A program made the translations under genes and the position numbers. From assembly GCF_016907055.1 (NCBI RefSeq), contig NZ_JAFBBG010000009.1, forward strand, positions 1 to 60,049: a stretch of DNA of 60,049 nt. Reading direction: 5' to 3'. A model generated the notes under the pieces. It was given only the letters and a program-made list of their open reading frames with translations. It was not told the origin of the DNA and did not search any database. Within the stretch, counting starts at the first letter, position 1. Each line of letters starts with the position of its first letter. Shown here piece after piece: positions 35,086 to 42,935 of this stretch. Source of the DNA: Paracholeplasma morum. GTDB lineage: Bacteria > Bacillota_I > Bacilli_A > Acholeplasmatales > UBA5453.

Positions 35086-35089
35086 TGAG

Positions 35090-35107
35090 AGCCCGTTTCG
35101 GGCTTTT
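35090..35107 (+). terminator. Terminator after the alpha-glucosidase gene
   Basis: AGCCCG (35090-35095) pairs with CGGGCT (35099-35104), loop TTT, followed by TTTC. Confidence 0.7.
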
Positions 35108-35115
35108 CGTATACT

Positions 35116-35150
35116 AAGACTAGGAGTTATTCTCTTAGTCTTTTATTTTT
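35116..35150 (+). terminator. Second terminator, probable IS110 target site
   Basis: AAGACTAGGAG (35116-35126) pairs with CTCTTAGTCTT (35132-35142, one G-U), followed by a T-rich tract. The element probably inserted at the CT at 35140-35141, at the base of this stem. Confidence 0.65.
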
Positions 35151-35158
35151 ATATAATT

Positions 35159-35305
35159 GGTAGTAAAATGAGGGCGAAGGCGTAGTTAAACAATTTGAAC
35201 TTCGAGTTCGTAAAAACTAGTATACCTTTGAGTATTTATGATAGTCTACGCCTTCCTATGATTTACTACGAGCTAAGAGAGATGACTCTTGGCTTTTCTT
35301 TTTTA
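35159..35305 (+). ncRNA. Structured RNA candidate upstream of IS110 transposase (possible bridge/seek RNA)
   Basis: A TATAAT lies at 35152-35157. Downstream an outer stem GTAGTAAA/TTTACTAC (35160-35167 with 35262-35269) encloses an inner ten-pair stem GAAGGCGTAG/CTACGCCTTC (35176-35185 with 35246-35255). The two stems are separated by an internal loop (35168-35175 and 35256-35261). A hairpin GAACT-TCG-AGTTC (35197-35209) sits in the apical part. A terminator hairpin AGCTAAGAG/CTCTTGGCT (35271-35279 with 35286-35294) and a T-rich run close it. The non-coding region 5' of the transposase gene is where IS110-group elements such as IS621 encode their bridge RNA. Guide pairing was not established. 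Confidence 0.55.
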
Positions 35306-35512
35306 TAGGCATATAGAAAAGAAAGTTTGAAAGGAAGGACGTGCGGGCCTTTGAACCTCGAGTTCGCGAAAAAAATGTCCAAAATTTCAGTTTATACACG
35401 AAACTAGTTTAGATCTAATGGTGTCAATGAACACGTATGAACAACGAAAAAAAGTAAGTGTATTTAAACTGAAACGAACCGTATCATCTAACAAAGAAAG
35501 GTGGTAAGTACT
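35306..35512. other. Non-coding leader of the IS110 transposase gene with a second long stem
   Basis: The 10-base TTTCAGTTTA and the adjoining TACAC (35385-35399) pair with GTGTA and TAAACTGAAA (35458-35474, two-base bulge), giving a 15-pair stem just before the gene. TTTGAACCTCGAGTTCG at 35350-35366 nearly repeats 35194-35210. Small palindromes AAACTAGTTT and TAGATCTA lie inside the stem. Confidence 0.5.
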
Positions 35513-36712
35513 GTGAAGAGTCCATGTGTAGCAGTGGACGTATCCAAGGGAAAGAGTTATTATCAAGGGTTTATTGAAATAGATAAACCAGCTAACAAAG
35601 CGACACCTATTCAAAACGAATTAGAGGGGTTTAAGTCTGTGTATGAATTAGGTCAAACATTGAAGGAAACGTATAGCGATGTCGTCTACGTATTTGAATC
35701 AACTGGGATCTATCATAAAGCGTTAGAAACATTTCTTATGAATCATGATGAAAAGTGTATTATTCTAAATCCTTTAGAGGCTTCAAAGATAAGAAAAACA
35801 GACTTAAGATCGACTAAGACAGACGCTAGGGACTGTAAGAGTATCGCTAAGGCATACTTCATGAAAGACTTTAGATTGCACGATCAAAAAGATGAACTCT
35901 ATGAGAAACTTCATAGTATGAATGGACATTACACTTTTCTTATTCAGCAGTTAAGAGAAATGAAGGTCCATTTTAGAAATGCTTTAGACATCGTGTATCC
36001 AAGGTTCGATGTAGTTTATCCAAATCCTTATTTGGACATTCCCATGTCAATCTTAAAGCGATATGCTCATCCTTACGAACTAAAGAATAAGCGCTTCGAA
36101 ACAATTGTGAAGTATATCATGAAAGATACCAAACATAGAGAACCAAAAGCAATGGATGAAGCTAAGAAACTCAAAGGTTATATTGACAATGTGTCTTCAG
36201 GTTGTCGTAGTAGTTCCTTTGAAGTAACCATTCTAAAGACTATGGTTAATAAGATCAGTGATCAAGAAGTTGAAATCGAGTTATGTTTGGATGAAATGAG
36301 AGAATTAGTGAGTGAAGTACCGCTTTATCATCAATTGATGAGTATTCCAGGCATCGGAGACAATCTCGCAATCAGACTGATAGGAGAATTAGGAAATTTA
36401 GACCGGTTTGAACGTAGTGAACAATTAGTCGCCTATGCTGGTATCGATCCTAGAGTGTATCAATCTGGTCAAATGACAGGTGAACATCTACACATTACGA
36501 AGAAAGGTAATAAACACCTAAGGACGTTATTATTCTTGGCTATGTCGAGTAATGTGAGAATTGGAAAAACAAACATAATTTTAAATTTTTACAACAAAAA
36601 AAGGCAACAAACGAACCCTCTCGTTTATAAAGCTGCCTTAATTGCCTGTGCCAATAAATTACTCAGAATAATCTTTGGCATGTACAAGAGTGGAAAGAAC
36701 TTCCACAAATAA
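35513..36712 (+). CDS. IS110-family transposase (DEDD recombinase)
   Basis: 399 residues from the GTG at 35513. AAAGAAAGGTGG lies 8 bases upstream, and the GTG at 35501 lies inside that site. The N-terminal RuvC-like domain carries D9 (DVSK), E62 (FESTG) and D104/D107 (TKTDARD). After a helical linker, the C-terminal Transposase_20 domain has SIPGIGDNLAIRLIGE, YAGIDP and the serine S318 in YQSGQMTG, the probable second active-site residue of IS110 recombinases. Full length, so the element may be active. IS110 enzymes work with an element-encoded guide RNA. Confidence 0.95.
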   Translation: MKSPCVAVDVSKGKSYYQGFIEIDKPANKATPIQNELEGFKSVYELGQTLKETYSDVVYVFESTGIYHKALETFLMNHDEKCIILNPLEASKIRKTDLRSTKTDARDCKSIAKAYFMKDFRLHDQKDELYEKLHSMNGHYTFLIQQLREMKVHFRNALDIVYPRFDVVYPNPYLDIPMSILKRYAHPYELKNKRFETIVKYIMKDTKHREPKAMDEAKKLKGYIDNVSSGCRSSSFEVTILKTMVNKISDQEVEIELCLDEMRELVSEVPLYHQLMSIPGIGDNLAIRLIGELGNLDRFERSEQLVAYAGIDPRVYQSGQMTGEHLHITKKGNKHLRTLLFLAMSSNVRIGKTNIILNFYNKKRQQTNPLVYKAALIACANKLLRIIFGMYKSGKNFHK

Positions 36713-36971
36713 ATTTCAATTTCATTATACTACTTAGAATACTAGATTTCAAATCTGGTTTTTAAGTGTGTTCATAAATAGGGATAAATAAAACTTAAAC
36801 TAGTGTTGACTTCCTTTATCTAATTTTTTTCATAAAAATGGCCATTTTTGATAGGAAAAATATAATAGAATAAAAAAAATGAAATTGCTGAGCTCTATAA
36901 ATAGATATTTATGCATATGAGTGATAGAATAAAGTATAACAATTTTGAATTTCAAATGAAGAGGTGGGACT
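36713..36971. other. Right end of IS110 and upstream region of the giant gene
   Basis: TTGACT at 36806-36811 lies near the inferred right end of the IS (CT at 36820-36821). Beyond it, a perfect 16-base palindrome AAAAATGGCCATTTTT (36834-36849) stands 11 bases before a TATAAT (36861-36866) that is the best -10 for the giant gene. No -35 match is visible. AGAGGTGGG precedes the ATG at 36972. Confidence 0.5.
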
Positions 36972-39900
36972 ATGGCAATACAAGCTTCAGAAATGATACA
37001 ATACTTAAATTATGCAGCGATAGGGATACTGGTAATTGCTGCCTTAAGGGGGTTTTGGCACGGTTTCTTCAAGTCGACATTCTTTTTCATATGGACTGCA
37101 GGTATATTAGTCCTGGCTTTTTTAATGATGAATTCTGTGTCTTCAATCTTGATGAAACAAAATGTAGGGTCACTATTATCTTTTGTTGATATTGGCGTAC
37201 CAATCACTAATATAGAAGATACAGTAGTTGCTTATTTGATTCATACAAAACCAGGATTAGCGGATGTGCTAGTAGATGGATCCGATGCACTTGCCTTGGT
37301 TTATGGAATCACGCAAATGGTTGTAAACATTGTATTTATGGTAATTGTGTTTGTTTTAAACCTAACGGTATTTAAACTCATCGGTTGGATAATATACTTA
37401 ATCGTTAAACCTAAAAAACGTGATGCCTCTGGTAAGAAGAGAAAAAAGAAAATGACTTCACGTTTGCTTGGTAGTGGGGTTGGCTTATTAAGAGGTGCAT
37501 TTTTAATTCTTTTAATATCCATGCCAATCGCAGCGATTGCTTCAATGTCTGGTGCACTTGATTTGGCCATGACTCAATCGGAGGCAAGCGCCCCAAGATA
37601 TCAGTTATACATAAGAAATGACGAAGTGATGCTAGTTGAGCAACAACCATTGGATCAACAATCCTCCGAACAAGAGATGTTAAATCAAGTAAGAGAATTC
37701 TTGACTAACTATCGTACCAGCTATGTTGGATCGATTGCAGGATTTGTGAAGATCAACGATGTTGAGTTGGATACTTACGTTTTTGACTCTATTCTCTCAG
37801 TCAAAGTTAAATCTGATAACCTCGATACCGAATTGAAATTCAGAGCTGAGTTAGCAAGAGCATTAGAAGCCGTTAAGATTATTATTGAAGCCAATGATGG
37901 TTCAACACAAATTGATGATACCATCATTGAAAAGCTCTCTCCTGATGATGTTACTGAGATTATGAACCTTATCTCAGAGTTAGATTTAATCGATGTCATT
38001 GTCCCAGTTGGACTAGAGTACTTGGTCAATAGTGGTGATTTTGATGAAATGCTTGAAGGCTATGAAGACATATTTGTACTAGAAGATTTAAAGGCAATTA
38101 ATATTGCTTCAGACATTGGCGTTCTTGGCGATGTGTTTGCGAATGCACTAACACTTATTCAAGCCCAAGAAGGCGTTCCACTTAAAGACATCAACTATTT
38201 TGAATTTGATGGAGACATAGTCAAAGATATTTTTGATAGTCTAGGCGATTTAGAATTGCTTCAATACGGCTTACCAGTTGCCTTAAACTATGCATTAGGC
38301 CTTGATGGCGTTGAAGAAATGTTAACTAAACAAGGTTTAACTAAAGAAGATTTAGTACTTCCTGATGGCACGAAACTTAATGAAGACTTCGAATCAATCG
38401 CTGATATGTATGTGGCAATTCAAGGATTAGGAATTACCTCATTCAGTGATTTTGACCGATTCAAGGATAAAGAATTCTTAGAGAGCATTAATGATCAAGC
38501 TATTTCTGATGTATTTGATGCATTATTCAGTTTTAACTTAATTAACGATAATAAAGACGCAGTGGGTGGCGTATTGTTTGATTTATTAACAGAAAGTCTT
38601 CCAACGGAGTACAAAGATTTACTAACCAAAGACGACATCACTACAAACCTTAATGCCACTGAAATGACCAACTTGATCTTATTAGCTAAAGTTGTTATGT
38701 CTACTGGTATCCTTGATTTAACTGGTGGTGAAAACCCAGATTACGCAGGAATCCTAAGTACGGCTAATATTGATTCAATCGTTGAAAAAATCAGCGGGTC
38801 GAATTTAATCAGCACGAAGATGAATGACGTTGTTGAAGTTCTATTAGCTCAGTTTAATCTAGGCGTTACGCTAGAAATTCCAGAAACCATCATTTGGTCT
38901 GAACAATCTGGTAAAGACGAACTTACAGCCCTATTGAATGCGGCAAGAGAAATACTGGCTGCGGACATCTTGGGTGGCAATTTATCTAACTTAACCGATA
39001 ACGATGTGGACAGATTATCGCTTTACCTATCTAACTCACTCGTAATCAAACATAACTTAAATGCTATTTTCAATAAATTAACATCTGAAACCAATTTAGG
39101 TGACATCGAAATTGTGCTTCCTGAAACACCAAACGATTGGACAGAAACAGAACTTAATTCATTATTGAAAGGCACAATCATCCTAATGGAAGCAGGCACA
39201 AACACGGATGCTTTATTAGGACTTACAGAAGCTCAAATCCACACACTGGCCTTATCTAAGGTACTTTCGAATACATTTGAAGGCGTATTCTTGGATATGG
39301 TTGCTGAAGGCGGAGAGTTATCCGGCATGTTGTTCGTTCCAGAAGAATTGACGTGGTATTCAGAAGGCGACTCAATTGGTGAGTTAGAATACATGTTACT
39401 CGCATTAATTGAAATTGTACCTGAAGGCACGAACATCAATGATTTTACAATCAATTTAAGCACGCTAAATGGCGTGGATATTCCAAAAATACTTAGATCT
39501 AAGACTGTTGAGATGACATTGGTAGAAACCATTAAGTCAATGATTACAACAGGGGACTTATCAAGTTATATCGAACCTAAGTTGCCAGATGATACAGATT
39601 ATGTCTGGTATCAAGATACAGACCAAACGTATCCTGATGGCGATTTAATCCCATTATTACTTGCTGTTCAAAACTTGAGTGGCTTAGGCGTTGCCTTAGA
39701 TCAAGTCAGCTATTCAGTGATTACAACTGCACTTGAAAATCCAGAAAATAAAGCTGCATTGGGTGAGTCATTATTATCATCAAGAATTCTTAAGAACTCT
39801 TTAGATAAGTTATTCACATCAATTTTAACTACTCAAGCTGGATTATCGATTACGATTGATAATAAGGCTAACCCAACTTTCTGGGATAATGAACTTCCTA

Positions 39901-42900
39901 GATTACTCGATGCCGTAAGCGTATTTGGATCATCCGACCTCAATGCGAATACATTATTAGGGTTATCTGAAGCCAATATCAGTTTAATCGCGAAATCCCA
40001 TATTATCGCTAACGTATTTGAAAGTATTCTTATGGATATGAGTAGCGAAGGTAACGATTTACACGGTCAAATATATATTCCAGAAGCCATTACATGGCAC
40101 TCTGAAGGGGATACAAAGGGCGAACTCGAACACTTACTTGTAGCGCTCAAAGCACTCGTTCCTGGTGGAGACTTAGCAGCAGCAAACATTGATTTTGATG
40201 CGTTAATGGGTGCCGATATTACTGTATTAATGGCCTCGAAAGTCATCGAACATACGGCAGTAGAAACCGTTAAACCAATGATTTTAACAGGTGAATTATC
40301 TGGTTATATCGAACCTAAGTTACCTGATGATACAGACTATGTGTGGTACCAAGACACAGATGAAACCTATCCTGATGGCGATTTAATCCCATTACTTAAA
40401 GCTATTCAAACCTTAGATAATCAAGGTGTTTCATTAACGACATTTGATTACACTTCATTAACAACAGCATTGTCTGATGAACAAAGTGTTCAATCCATCA
40501 ATGATACGCTATTATCTTCTAGAATTATCCATAACTCACTTGATAAGATGTTCACATCTATCTTAAACAGCAATGCAGGATTCGCTGTTACACTTGACAA
40601 CAAGTCAAATCCAACATTCTGGAATGGCACTGAGACAGAAGATGGTGAATTAATCAAGTTATTAAGATCTGTTAAACTATTAGGTTCGAACGATCTTGAT
40701 GCCAATGCAATTACATCTGATTTATTAGTGGATTTAATTGATGCAGGTTCAAGTATTGTAAGAACACAAATCTCTAAAGCCATTGTTGATACAGGTATTG
40801 AAATCCCAGATTCAGCATTTGAAACAGGATCAACAACCGAAATTAAAGAATCTGAATTAAGAGCTGTTGCCGTTGCACTTGATGCAGTAGGAACCGTTAA
40901 TGATGTTTCAACCATGGATGCTTCAAGCATTAATGCGGCTAAATTAACCGCATTACTAGCTGCAAATTCAGTGATTGTTAACAGACAGATTTCCAAGGCT
41001 ATTATTGATAGCGGACTTGAAATTCCAGAAAGTGCATTTGTGGATGAGACTCAGAAAGATATCACTCCAACAGAGCTGAATGCTATTGTTACCGCATTAG
41101 GTACTTTAGGTTCCGTTGAAGAAGTATCGACAATGAATGCTTCAACCATTGATGCGGCTACATTAACTGGTCTATTAGCAGCAGATTCAGTGATTGTTAA
41201 CAGACAAATCTCTAAAGCTATTATTGATAGCGGATTAAGTATTCCAACTAGCGCATATGTCGTAGGTTCAACTAAGGACATCAAGCCTGAAGAACTCGAT
41301 GCTATCGTATTAGCGTTACAACATGTTGGTTCAGTAGATGAAGTATCTAACCTAGATTCATCAACCATTGATGCTCAATTAATTAATGACCTATTGAGTG
41401 CAAACTCATTAATCGTTAACAGACAAATCTCGAACGCTATTTTGAACCCTTCGGCAGGATTAGATATTCCAGATGAAGCAAAAGAAACGTCAGAAGATAT
41501 TTACGCAACCGAATTACAAAACTTAGCTACAGCATTAGGTTTCATTGGAGATGGATCAGTCAATGGCGTATCTTCATTGGATCAAAACTCCATTAATGCG
41601 ACACTTCTAGCGAACCTATTGGCAGCCGATTCGTTGATCGTTAATCGACAAATCTCTACAGCAATTATTAATTCTGGCTTATCAATTCCAGATGATGCTT
41701 TTGTAGAAGGATCTACTAAAGATATTACGCCTGAGGAATTAGAAGCATTAACTCAAGCATTAGGACACTTAGGAACAGGTTCGATTGCATCAATCAGTAC
41801 ACTTGATGCGGATGCTATAAACAGCACATTGTTAACTACCCTATTGAGTGAAAACTCATTAATCGTTAATAGACAAATCTCAAGCGCAGTCATTAGTTCA
41901 GGATTATCGATCCCAACAGACGCTTACGTGTTAGGTTCAACAGAAGACATTAAGTCTACTGAACTTAGCGCTCTAGCAACTGCATTAGGTTATTTAGGAA
42001 CTGGTTCAATCGCATCTGTTTCAACATTAGACGCTGATGCTATTGATTCCACATTATTAACTAACTTACTAAGTGCCAACTCAGTGATTGTTAATAGACA
42101 AATCTCAAGCGCAGTTATTAGTTCAGGATTATCAATCCCAAGTGAAGCTTATGTGATAGGTTCAACAGAAGACATTACGTCTGCTGAACTTAGCGCTCTA
42201 GCAACTGCATTAGGTTACTTAGGAACAGGCTCGATTGCATCTGTATCTTCATTGAATGCAAGCACAATTGACAGTGATTTATTATCTGATCTACTAAGTG
42301 CCAACTCAGTGATTGTCAATAGACAAATCTCAAGTGCAGTTATTGCATCTGGATTAACAATCCCAACCGACGCATACGTATTAGGATCAAGTGTTGACTT
42401 AACATCAACAGAGTTATCAGCAGTGGCCTTAGCGCTAGGCCATTTAGGTGGCACATTGGATTCTGTATCTAGCCTATCCGCTAACGCTATTAATGGTCAG
42501 TTATTGACAAACTTATTAACAGACAACTCAGTCATTGTTAATCGTCAAATTTCAACTGCAATTATTACCGCTGGATTAACCAGTGGTAACATAGATGCCA
42601 TTGTAAACGACATTAATTCACCAAGAAATGGCGAAGTTAAATACATTGAAATGGTAGGACTTGCCGAAGCCTTAACATCTATGGGTGCATCAACAACCAT
42701 TGCAGATATCGCTTCATTAAATGCAAACATGGTTTCTACATTCAGTGATGAAACAATCGACATTATGTTTGATCCGGATTATACGATTATCTACTACATA
42801 ATCGAAGATGAATTATCTGCTAACCCAGCTTATACATTCTTCTTAACACCTACTGATTACGTTGATGATAATCCGGCTAACCGAATCAAACGTGAGAAAC

Positions 42901-42935
42901 TTGTTACTGATTTAAAGGCAGGAATCTCATTCTAA
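36972..42935 (+). CDS. Giant CvpA-like membrane protein with long repeat-rich extracellular region (1987 aa)
   Basis: Residues 1-~192 hold four membrane segments (~13-28, 33-55, 108-142, 166-192) with CvpA-like features: RGFWHGFFKSTFFF early, and GLLRGAFLILLISMP in the last one. A Lys/Arg-rich loop (143-165) lies between segments 3 and 4 and should be cytosolic, which puts residues 193-1987 outside. That part is acidic and lacks Cys. It contains related modules: two 246-residue units (marked by YIEPKLPDDTDYVWYQDTD at 866 and 1112) and then about eight tandem units of 73-75 residues (S-x-IVNRQIS at residues 1260 to 1853). No C-terminal anchor or known adhesin domain is seen. Possibly a surface or envelope-organising protein. 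Confidence 0.7.
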   Translation: MAIQASEMIQYLNYAAIGILVIAALRGFWHGFFKSTFFFIWTAGILVLAFLMMNSVSSILMKQNVGSLLSFVDIGVPITNIEDTVVAYLIHTKPGLADVLVDGSDALALVYGITQMVVNIVFMVIVFVLNLTVFKLIGWIIYLIVKPKKRDASGKKRKKKMTSRLLGSGVGLLRGAFLILLISMPIAAIASMSGALDLAMTQSEASAPRYQLYIRNDEVMLVEQQPLDQQSSEQEMLNQVREFLTNYRTSYVGSIAGFVKINDVELDTYVFDSILSVKVKSDNLDTELKFRAELARALEAVKIIIEANDGSTQIDDTIIEKLSPDDVTEIMNLISELDLIDVIVPVGLEYLVNSGDFDEMLEGYEDIFVLEDLKAINIASDIGVLGDVFANALTLIQAQEGVPLKDINYFEFDGDIVKDIFDSLGDLELLQYGLPVALNYALGLDGVEEMLTKQGLTKEDLVLPDGTKLNEDFESIADMYVAIQGLGITSFSDFDRFKDKEFLESINDQAISDVFDALFSFNLINDNKDAVGGVLFDLLTESLPTEYKDLLTKDDITTNLNATEMTNLILLAKVVMSTGILDLTGGENPDYAGILSTANIDSIVEKISGSNLISTKMNDVVEVLLAQFNLGVTLEIPETIIWSEQSGKDELTALLNAAREILAADILGGNLSNLTDNDVDRLSLYLSNSLVIKHNLNAIFNKLTSETNLGDIEIVLPETPNDWTETELNSLLKGTIILMEAGTNTDALLGLTEAQIHTLALSKVLSNTFEGVFLDMVAEGGELSGMLFVPEELTWYSEGDSIGELEYMLLALIEIVPEGTNINDFTINLSTLNGVDIPKILRSKTVEMTLVETIKSMITTGDLSSYIEPKLPDDTDYVWYQDTDQTYPDGDLIPLLLAVQNLSGLGVALDQVSYSVITTALENPENKAALGESLLSSRILKNSLDKLFTSILTTQAGLSITIDNKANPTFWDNELPRLLDAVSVFGSSDLNANTLLGLSEANISLIAKSHIIANVFESILMDMSSEGNDLHGQIYIPEAITWHSEGDTKGELEHLLVALKALVPGGDLAAANIDFDALMGADITVLMASKVIEHTAVETVKPMILTGELSGYIEPKLPDDTDYVWYQDTDETYPDGDLIPLLKAIQTLDNQGVSLTTFDYTSLTTALSDEQSVQSINDTLLSSRIIHNSLDKMFTSILNSNAGFAVTLDNKSNPTFWNGTETEDGELIKLLRSVKLLGSNDLDANAITSDLLVDLIDAGSSIVRTQISKAIVDTGIEIPDSAFETGSTTEIKESELRAVAVALDAVGTVNDVSTMDASSINAAKLTALLAANSVIVNRQISKAIIDSGLEIPESAFVDETQKDITPTELNAIVTALGTLGSVEEVSTMNASTIDAATLTGLLAADSVIVNRQISKAIIDSGLSIPTSAYVVGSTKDIKPEELDAIVLALQHVGSVDEVSNLDSSTIDAQLINDLLSANSLIVNRQISNAILNPSAGLDIPDEAKETSEDIYATELQNLATALGFIGDGSVNGVSSLDQNSINATLLANLLAADSLIVNRQISTAIINSGLSIPDDAFVEGSTKDITPEELEALTQALGHLGTGSIASISTLDADAINSTLLTTLLSENSLIVNRQISSAVISSGLSIPTDAYVLGSTEDIKSTELSALATALGYLGTGSIASVSTLDADAIDSTLLTNLLSANSVIVNRQISSAVISSGLSIPSEAYVIGSTEDITSAELSALATALGYLGTGSIASVSSLNASTIDSDLLSDLLSANSVIVNRQISSAVIASGLTIPTDAYVLGSSVDLTSTELSAVALALGHLGGTLDSVSSLSANAINGQLLTNLLTDNSVIVNRQISTAIITAGLTSGNIDAIVNDINSPRNGEVKYIEMVGLAEALTSMGASTTIADIASLNANMVSTFSDETIDIMFDPDYTIIYYIIEDELSANPAYTFFLTPTDYVDDNPANRIKREKLVTDLKAGISF
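39270..40748 (+). repeat. Two 738-base coding repeats inside the giant gene
   Basis: Equivalent codons of the YIEPK segment lie at 39567 and 40305, exactly 738 bases (246 codons) apart. Matching blocks before and after it include NVFE-x-ILMDM-like, EG/ELxxLLxAL and SLDKxFTSIL segments. The outer limits are approximate. Confidence 0.75.
40749..42600 (+). repeat. Tandem array of 219-225-base coding repeats
   Basis: The codon for the Ser of S-x-IV-x-x-QIS recurs at 40749, 40968, 41187, 41406, 41631, 41856, 42081, 42306 and 42528, giving periods of 219, 219, 219, 225, 225, 225, 225 and 222 bases. Units starting at 41856 and 42081 are nearly identical over long stretches at DNA level, so part of the array is recent. 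Confidence 0.9.

Follow-up and report, generated by a model that had tools for sequence, protein, structure and literature searches.

What does the structured, non-coding left end of an IS110 element from Paracholeplasma morum encode? We analysed a stretch of 60,049 nucleotides (hereafter the window), whose source contig is part of a 1.56-Mb draft genome (G000). The relatives of this genome are uncultured Acholeplasmatales, in keeping with the mollicute-like host proposed in the initial annotation, which had also placed a bridge RNA in the left end of the element, at 35140-35310. From sequence comparison, the left end of this IS110-group element very probably holds one bridge-RNA locus in two parts, a 5' domain and guide-bearing loops. 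A bridge RNA would thus lie in the left end as proposed, but its guide loops are at 35337-35380 and 35385-35474, outside the span first given.

The region contains one IS110-group element, and G000 carries this single copy, which leaves no within-genome comparison. The element and its main landmarks are as follows.

35105-36826, forward strand: IS110-group element, with ends CGTATA... and ...CTAA and three ambiguous junction T's on each side
35513-36712, forward strand: IS110 recombinase, with a GTG start after AAAGGTGG and the domains DEDD_Tnp_IS110 and Transposase_20
36806-36826, forward strand: right end, with the -35 box TTGACT and the donor sequence TTATCTAATTT

The boundaries are common to L002, L003, L004, L010, L012, and L013, in which the sequence is shared from the same base on each side. 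The left end comprises about 405 bp of non-coding sequence upstream of the transposase and the right end about 115 bp, which is the layout of the IS110 group; features of the IS1111 group are absent, as the non-coding region is upstream of the transposase and long inverted repeats were not seen at either end. The recombinase, whose start is probably the GTG at 35513, matches the Pfam families DEDD_Tnp_IS110 (2e-23) and Transposase_20 (8e-24), and its closest solved structures in the PDB are IS621 (1e-11) and ISCro4 (5e-11). Specifically, the catalytic residues E60, D102, D105, and S241 of IS621 (IS621 numbering) align with identical residues in the window recombinase. The presence of a DEDD RuvC-like domain and a Tnp20 domain with the catalytic serine assigns the element to the IS110 family and the IS110 group, and the transposase is intact, as had been annotated. 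An Rfam search of the window returned only a tRNA, the bridge-RNA region having no match to a curated family; viral contigs gave no match, and plasmid and phage matches are only 26-31% identical. Directly downstream of the element, the window encodes a very long repeat-rich membrane-anchored protein (36974-42935).

The 5' domain is made up of the following features.

35164-35169, forward strand: internal -10 box TAAAAT, belonging to the 5' domain, with a predicted RNA start at 35176
35176-35255, forward strand: 5' domain loop, with the stem GAAGGCGTAG/CTACGCCTTC, the hairpin GAACTTCGAGTTC, and a hairpin at 35217-35245
35270-35302, forward strand: terminator-like hairpin AGCTAAGAG/CTCTTGGCT with a T-tract (hairpin 35270-35295, then the T-run), where solo copies end
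35294-35325, forward strand: second hairpin, with the T-tract as 5' arm, TTTTCTTTTTTATA-GGCA-TATAGAAAAGAAA

The nested stems of 8 and 10 pairs, the inner hairpins, and the terminator hairpin with its T run are present in the letters as first described: the inner 10-pair stem pairs GAAGGCGTAG (35176-35185) with CTACGCCTTC (35246-35255), and the outer 8-pair stem pairs 35160-35167 with 35262-35269. The fold energy is -44.3 kcal/mol, compared with -29.6 +/- 3.7 for shuffled sequences (z -3.9; 0/200 shuffles). Among eight relatives, pairing holds in 98.6% of cells across the inner stem with its two hairpins, the terminator-like stem, and one further hairpin, with 12 pairs altered on both sides (0/500 shuffles). 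A covariance model built from these eight (R1) gave near-complete matches outside the seed, with E values of 4e-20 (L014), 6e-17 (L017), 1e-15 (L013), 3e-14 (L032), 3e-13 (L012), 2e-12 (L034), and about 2e-7 (L024 and L016). Contrary to what would have refuted the initial annotation, the stems are kept in copies whose transposases are at least 40% identical. R1 found no match in the distant group L018-L023 and L033 (35-37% identity), whose 5' layout differs by eye and which was left out of the comparisons. A weak match inside a gene end (L079) looks spurious.

Conservation also locates the promoter. A -10 box matching TATAAT at no fewer than five of six positions stands 11-13 nt ahead of the inner stem in each of the 25 copies with readable upstream sequence, which places the predicted RNA start at about 35176 and gives no support to the earlier suggestion of 35160-35164. 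The outer 8-pair stem is probably left untranscribed, because it overlaps this conserved -10 box; the claim of conserved stems is confirmed for the covarying inner stem, inner hairpins, and terminator, but not for the outer stem. The TATAAT earlier named as the promoter is present at 35152-35157 but absent in L003 and L004. Since the T-run is also an arm of the conserved GGCA-loop hairpin, conserved structure extends past it, and a conserved hairpin built on the T-tract implies transcripts that pass the terminator.

With R1 we searched 160 genomes from the order and 395 from the class, and examined the copies without a transposase within 1.5 kb, some of which are contig ends. In L056, L064, L065, L068, L076, and L078, hardly more than the 5' domain is left, and the copy stops at or close to the T-tract of the terminator; such solo copies keep the -10 box and stem where these were read, and have no guide loops or transposase within 1.5 kb. 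The solo 5' domains mostly retain the IS left end, and the left-end hairpin is also lost in L064 and L068. The simplest reading is that they are remnants of deletion at T-tracts. The structure therefore does occur without the rest of the IS, a finding that the initial annotation would have counted against itself, but in copies that look like deletion remnants. In other copies (L052, L055, L059, and L075) the break lies within the target loop or immediately behind it. The break point of L055, L059, and L052 lies inside the right guide of that loop, as if it were recombination-prone. Additionally, in L007 (about 1346, G003 chromosome), whose transposase is 97% identical, the whole left end is gone as far as halfway through the target loop, where unrelated sequence is joined; this copy is a natural bridge-RNA knock-out.

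The solo copies bear on the alternative that survives best, in which the 5' domain lies outside the bridge RNA and acts as an independent small RNA of about 125 nt, with its own promoter and terminator, that regulates either the element or its host in trans, for instance as a recombinase decoy. It would account for the conserved -10 box at a fixed distance, the conserved terminator, which separates the two parts, and about six solo copies that break off at or close to the T-tract of the terminator; this terminator and the solo copies also count against a two-part locus. The apical hairpin of the 5' domain (UGAAC..GUUCG), which resembles those of both guide loops, would suit an independent RNA as well. 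Against it, the T-tract pairs downstream in a conserved hairpin that needs transcripts beyond the terminator, both parts occur together in all full-length relatives whose transposase is at least 40% identical, and the solo copies may simply be what is left after deletion at a T-tract. We regard an independent small RNA as possible though rather unlikely, and prefer the two-part bridge-RNA locus.

The second part of that locus begins with the target loop, whose guides we compared with the DNA at the landing site.

35089-35105, forward strand: host intrinsic-terminator stem GAGCCCGTTTCGGGCTT, the left target, with the element inserted into its T-tract
35337-35380, forward strand: target-binding loop, with the stem GGACGT/ATGTCC, the left guide at 35344-35352 (CGGGCCTTT), a hairpin at 35353-35365, and the right guide at 35366-35374

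The guide loops lie about 40-150 nt downstream of the 5' domain. In the aligned relatives, the target loop has a conserved stem and apical hairpin with a variable 5' side, and its stem covaries, as does that of the donor loop. The left guide equals the left flank of its own copy at 9/9 positions in L010 (TCCTTGTTT), L012 (GGTCTTTTT), L013 (ACCTCTTTT), L017 (TAGTCATTT), L036 (GCTTCTTTT), and L075 (GGGCTTTTT). Over 24 loci the mean match is 7.83/9, against 5.88 +/- 0.21 for permuted pairings (0/200,000), and in 23 of these loci the best match, with 50-70 bases of flank searched, lies no more than 2 nt from the insertion point. The right guide likewise matches the right flank (p 8.5e-5), as with TTTTCTTT in L003 and TTTTTTATAC in L036. 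The window element has its target at the terminator seam CGGGCTTTT/TTTTTTTCA (target sequence CGGGCTTTTTTTTCA), and its left guide CGGGCCTTT matches the flank CGGGCTTTT at 8/9 positions; the one mismatch and the 1-nt offset that is needed speak against the two-part model, as do L034, whose guide fits its own flank poorly (4/9), and L062, with an identical guide (6/9). The common guide of these two copies, CGAGATTTT, is complementary to ATCTCG in their own apical hairpin, and it has possibly been silenced or recently changed.

The same comparison bears on the proposal that the 35140-35310 structure is itself the bridge RNA, with its own loops pairing with target and donor. Its left-end position, conserved stems, and bridge-RNA-like loop architecture would suit such a role, but the linkers of the 5'-domain loop match the left flanks on neither strand better than permuted ones do in 21 loci (p 0.998, 0.61, 0.30, and 0.60), while the downstream loop matches strongly. 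The sequence TAGTCTA (35242-35248), once read as a target match around a CT, lies in the stems and does not match the target, which is the terminator seam. We consider this proposal highly improbable. That the guide-flank match reflects only a shared T-tract and base composition, without guiding, is scarcely credible, for although all targets and guides are T-rich, the permutation keeps composition, and the non-T positions alone match at 3.33 against 2.16 +/- 0.15 (0/200,000).

Guides also differ between near-identical copies. The window element and L002 differ by 1.7% in non-coding sequence, yet at 5/9 guide positions; the corresponding values are 1.5% and 6/9 for L062 and L067, 4.2% and 5/9 for L032 and L066, and 6.1% and 6/9 for L013 and L034. 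In most of these four pairs, each copy matches its own landing site. Natural reprogramming of guides is known already (PMC11187229). That guides are rewritten and not merely drifting, by a process copying or re-selecting landing-site sequence into the guide, strikes us as a long shot.

The donor loop follows the target loop.

35385-35474, forward strand: donor-binding loop, with the stem TTTCAGTTTATACAC/GTGTATTTAAACTGAAA, the left donor guide ATCTAAT at 35413-35419, and the right donor guide GTAT..ACGAAAA at 35435-35450

By inspection, ATCTAAT and GTAT..ACGAAAA match the right and left ends of the element, respectively. The ATCTAA of the donor loop equals the right end, and guide and end change together in L017 (ACTAA) and L024 (ATCCAA). 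The closing stem is 60% paired on the MAFFT alignment, a value that weighs against the two-part model and probably reflects misalignment. In L015 the right donor guide reads CAGGAAA, not ACGAAA, which predicts a left end TTTCCTG; the left end of that copy lies beyond the contig.

We then consider the class of landing sites. The left-target hairpin of the window has an energy of -9.9 kcal/mol, against -2.2 for shuffled sequences (0/40), and of the 23 left flanks tested, at least 14 have a hairpin stem directly adjoining the insertion point, with energies clearly below those of shuffles; L074, L075, and L076 add three further terminator flanks by inspection. Several copies, such as L010, L014, L017, L036, L039, and L052, are not at terminators, another point against the two-part model as formulated here. 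In genome G091, two IS110 copies, L010 (1086-1102 and 2827-2852) and L070, lie inside CRISPR repeats GTTTCAATCCTTGTTTTAATGGATCWTGCACTTCAAC; L010 is flanked by the repeat on either side, and its left guide matches the repeat at 9/9 positions, while for L070 the repeat forms the left flank. The papers examined, mostly as titles and abstracts, yielded no account of IS110 elements targeting terminators or CRISPR repeats.

No empty site for the window insertion was found in the family, and the empty-site logic was taken from L010 instead. The intact CRISPR repeats beside L010 represent the empty site and reveal three shared T's at each junction, and the joined ends consequently read TTGACT-N17-TATACT. 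The left-end features concerned are these.

35110-35115, forward strand: TATACT, the -10 box of the predicted circle-junction promoter, whose -35 box TTGACT is at 36806-36811, with a spacer of 17
35116-35142, forward strand: left-end terminator hairpin, AAGACTAGGAG...CTCTTAGTCTT, with a T-rich tail

A 17-bp spacing from TTGxxx to TATxxT is seen in 12 of 13 elements, and a promoter is predicted to be reconstituted at the circle junction. The left-end hairpin probably blocks host read-through.

Together, these features suggest how the locus may work. Transcripts from the circle-junction promoter and the internal -10 box would be fed through part 1 (35176-35302), the conserved 5' domain, which includes an internal terminator and has a -10 box of its own. 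This terminator would act as an attenuator, at which a portion of the transcripts stop as a short RNA of about 125 nt; read-through would yield a longer RNA serving as bridge RNA and transposase mRNA, including part 2 (35337-35474), the guide-bearing bridge RNA with its target and donor loops. The recombinase would join the circle to the T-tract of guide-matching DNA, mostly at intrinsic-terminator seams, via the target loop, and the donor loop would let it recognise its own joined ends, while host transcription would be kept out of the element by its left-end hairpin. Comparison among the copies supports the structure, the promoters, the guide-target and guide-donor matches, and the target class. 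Part 1 may be the 5' domain of the bridge RNA, a counterpart of the IS621 5' stem-loop that would probably be bound by the recombinase.

The order and strand logic of the loops follow those known for the IS621 bridge RNA (PMC11208160). As in IS621, the bridge RNA belongs to the left end and precedes a DEDD/Ser recombinase, the target loop comes before the donor loop, the left guide of about 9 nt is on the 5' side and the right guide on the 3' side, the right donor guide is discontiguous, and a promoter is predicted at the RE-LE junction (PMC11208160). The two systems differ in that IS621 has a simple 5' stem-loop where, directly before the target loop, the present element has a 5' domain of about 125 nt with several hairpins, its own -10 box, and an internal terminator, and two hairpins; in the core, which is CT in IS621 and within TTT here; in the targets, REP elements as opposed to terminator seams or CRISPR repeats; and in the transposase, about 326 aa against 399-403 aa (PMC11208160). 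The seekRNA of ISEc21 and ISEc11 is alike in that an RNA from the non-coding region matches both target strands, and natural reprogramming between close relatives was seen for ISEc11/ISXne4 and ISEc21/ISMch6; here, in contrast, each of many near-identical copies from a single bacterial order and class has a guide that fits its own landing site, and the leader domain is far larger (PMC11187229). IS elements that target REP palindromes also insert in intergenic palindromes, probably with little harm, whereas the palindrome here is an intrinsic terminator, cut in the T-tract beside the stem (PMC1525189). What is known is the IS110 bridge-RNA system; what is new is the large extra 5' domain with an internal terminator and the targeting of terminator seams.

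These findings place a natural bridge-RNA system in Acholeplasmatales and relatives, one that inserts mostly at terminator seams, a safe class of sites, and demonstrate two insertions into CRISPR repeats within one genome. They make many natural guide/target pairs available for the pairing rules of the system, and with abrupt guide changes between near-identical copies, how such elements switch target becomes directly testable. Finally, they indicate that a bridge RNA can have a large additional 5' domain with a promoter signal of its own and a terminator, which offers a way to study how the levels of bridge RNA and recombinase may be controlled.
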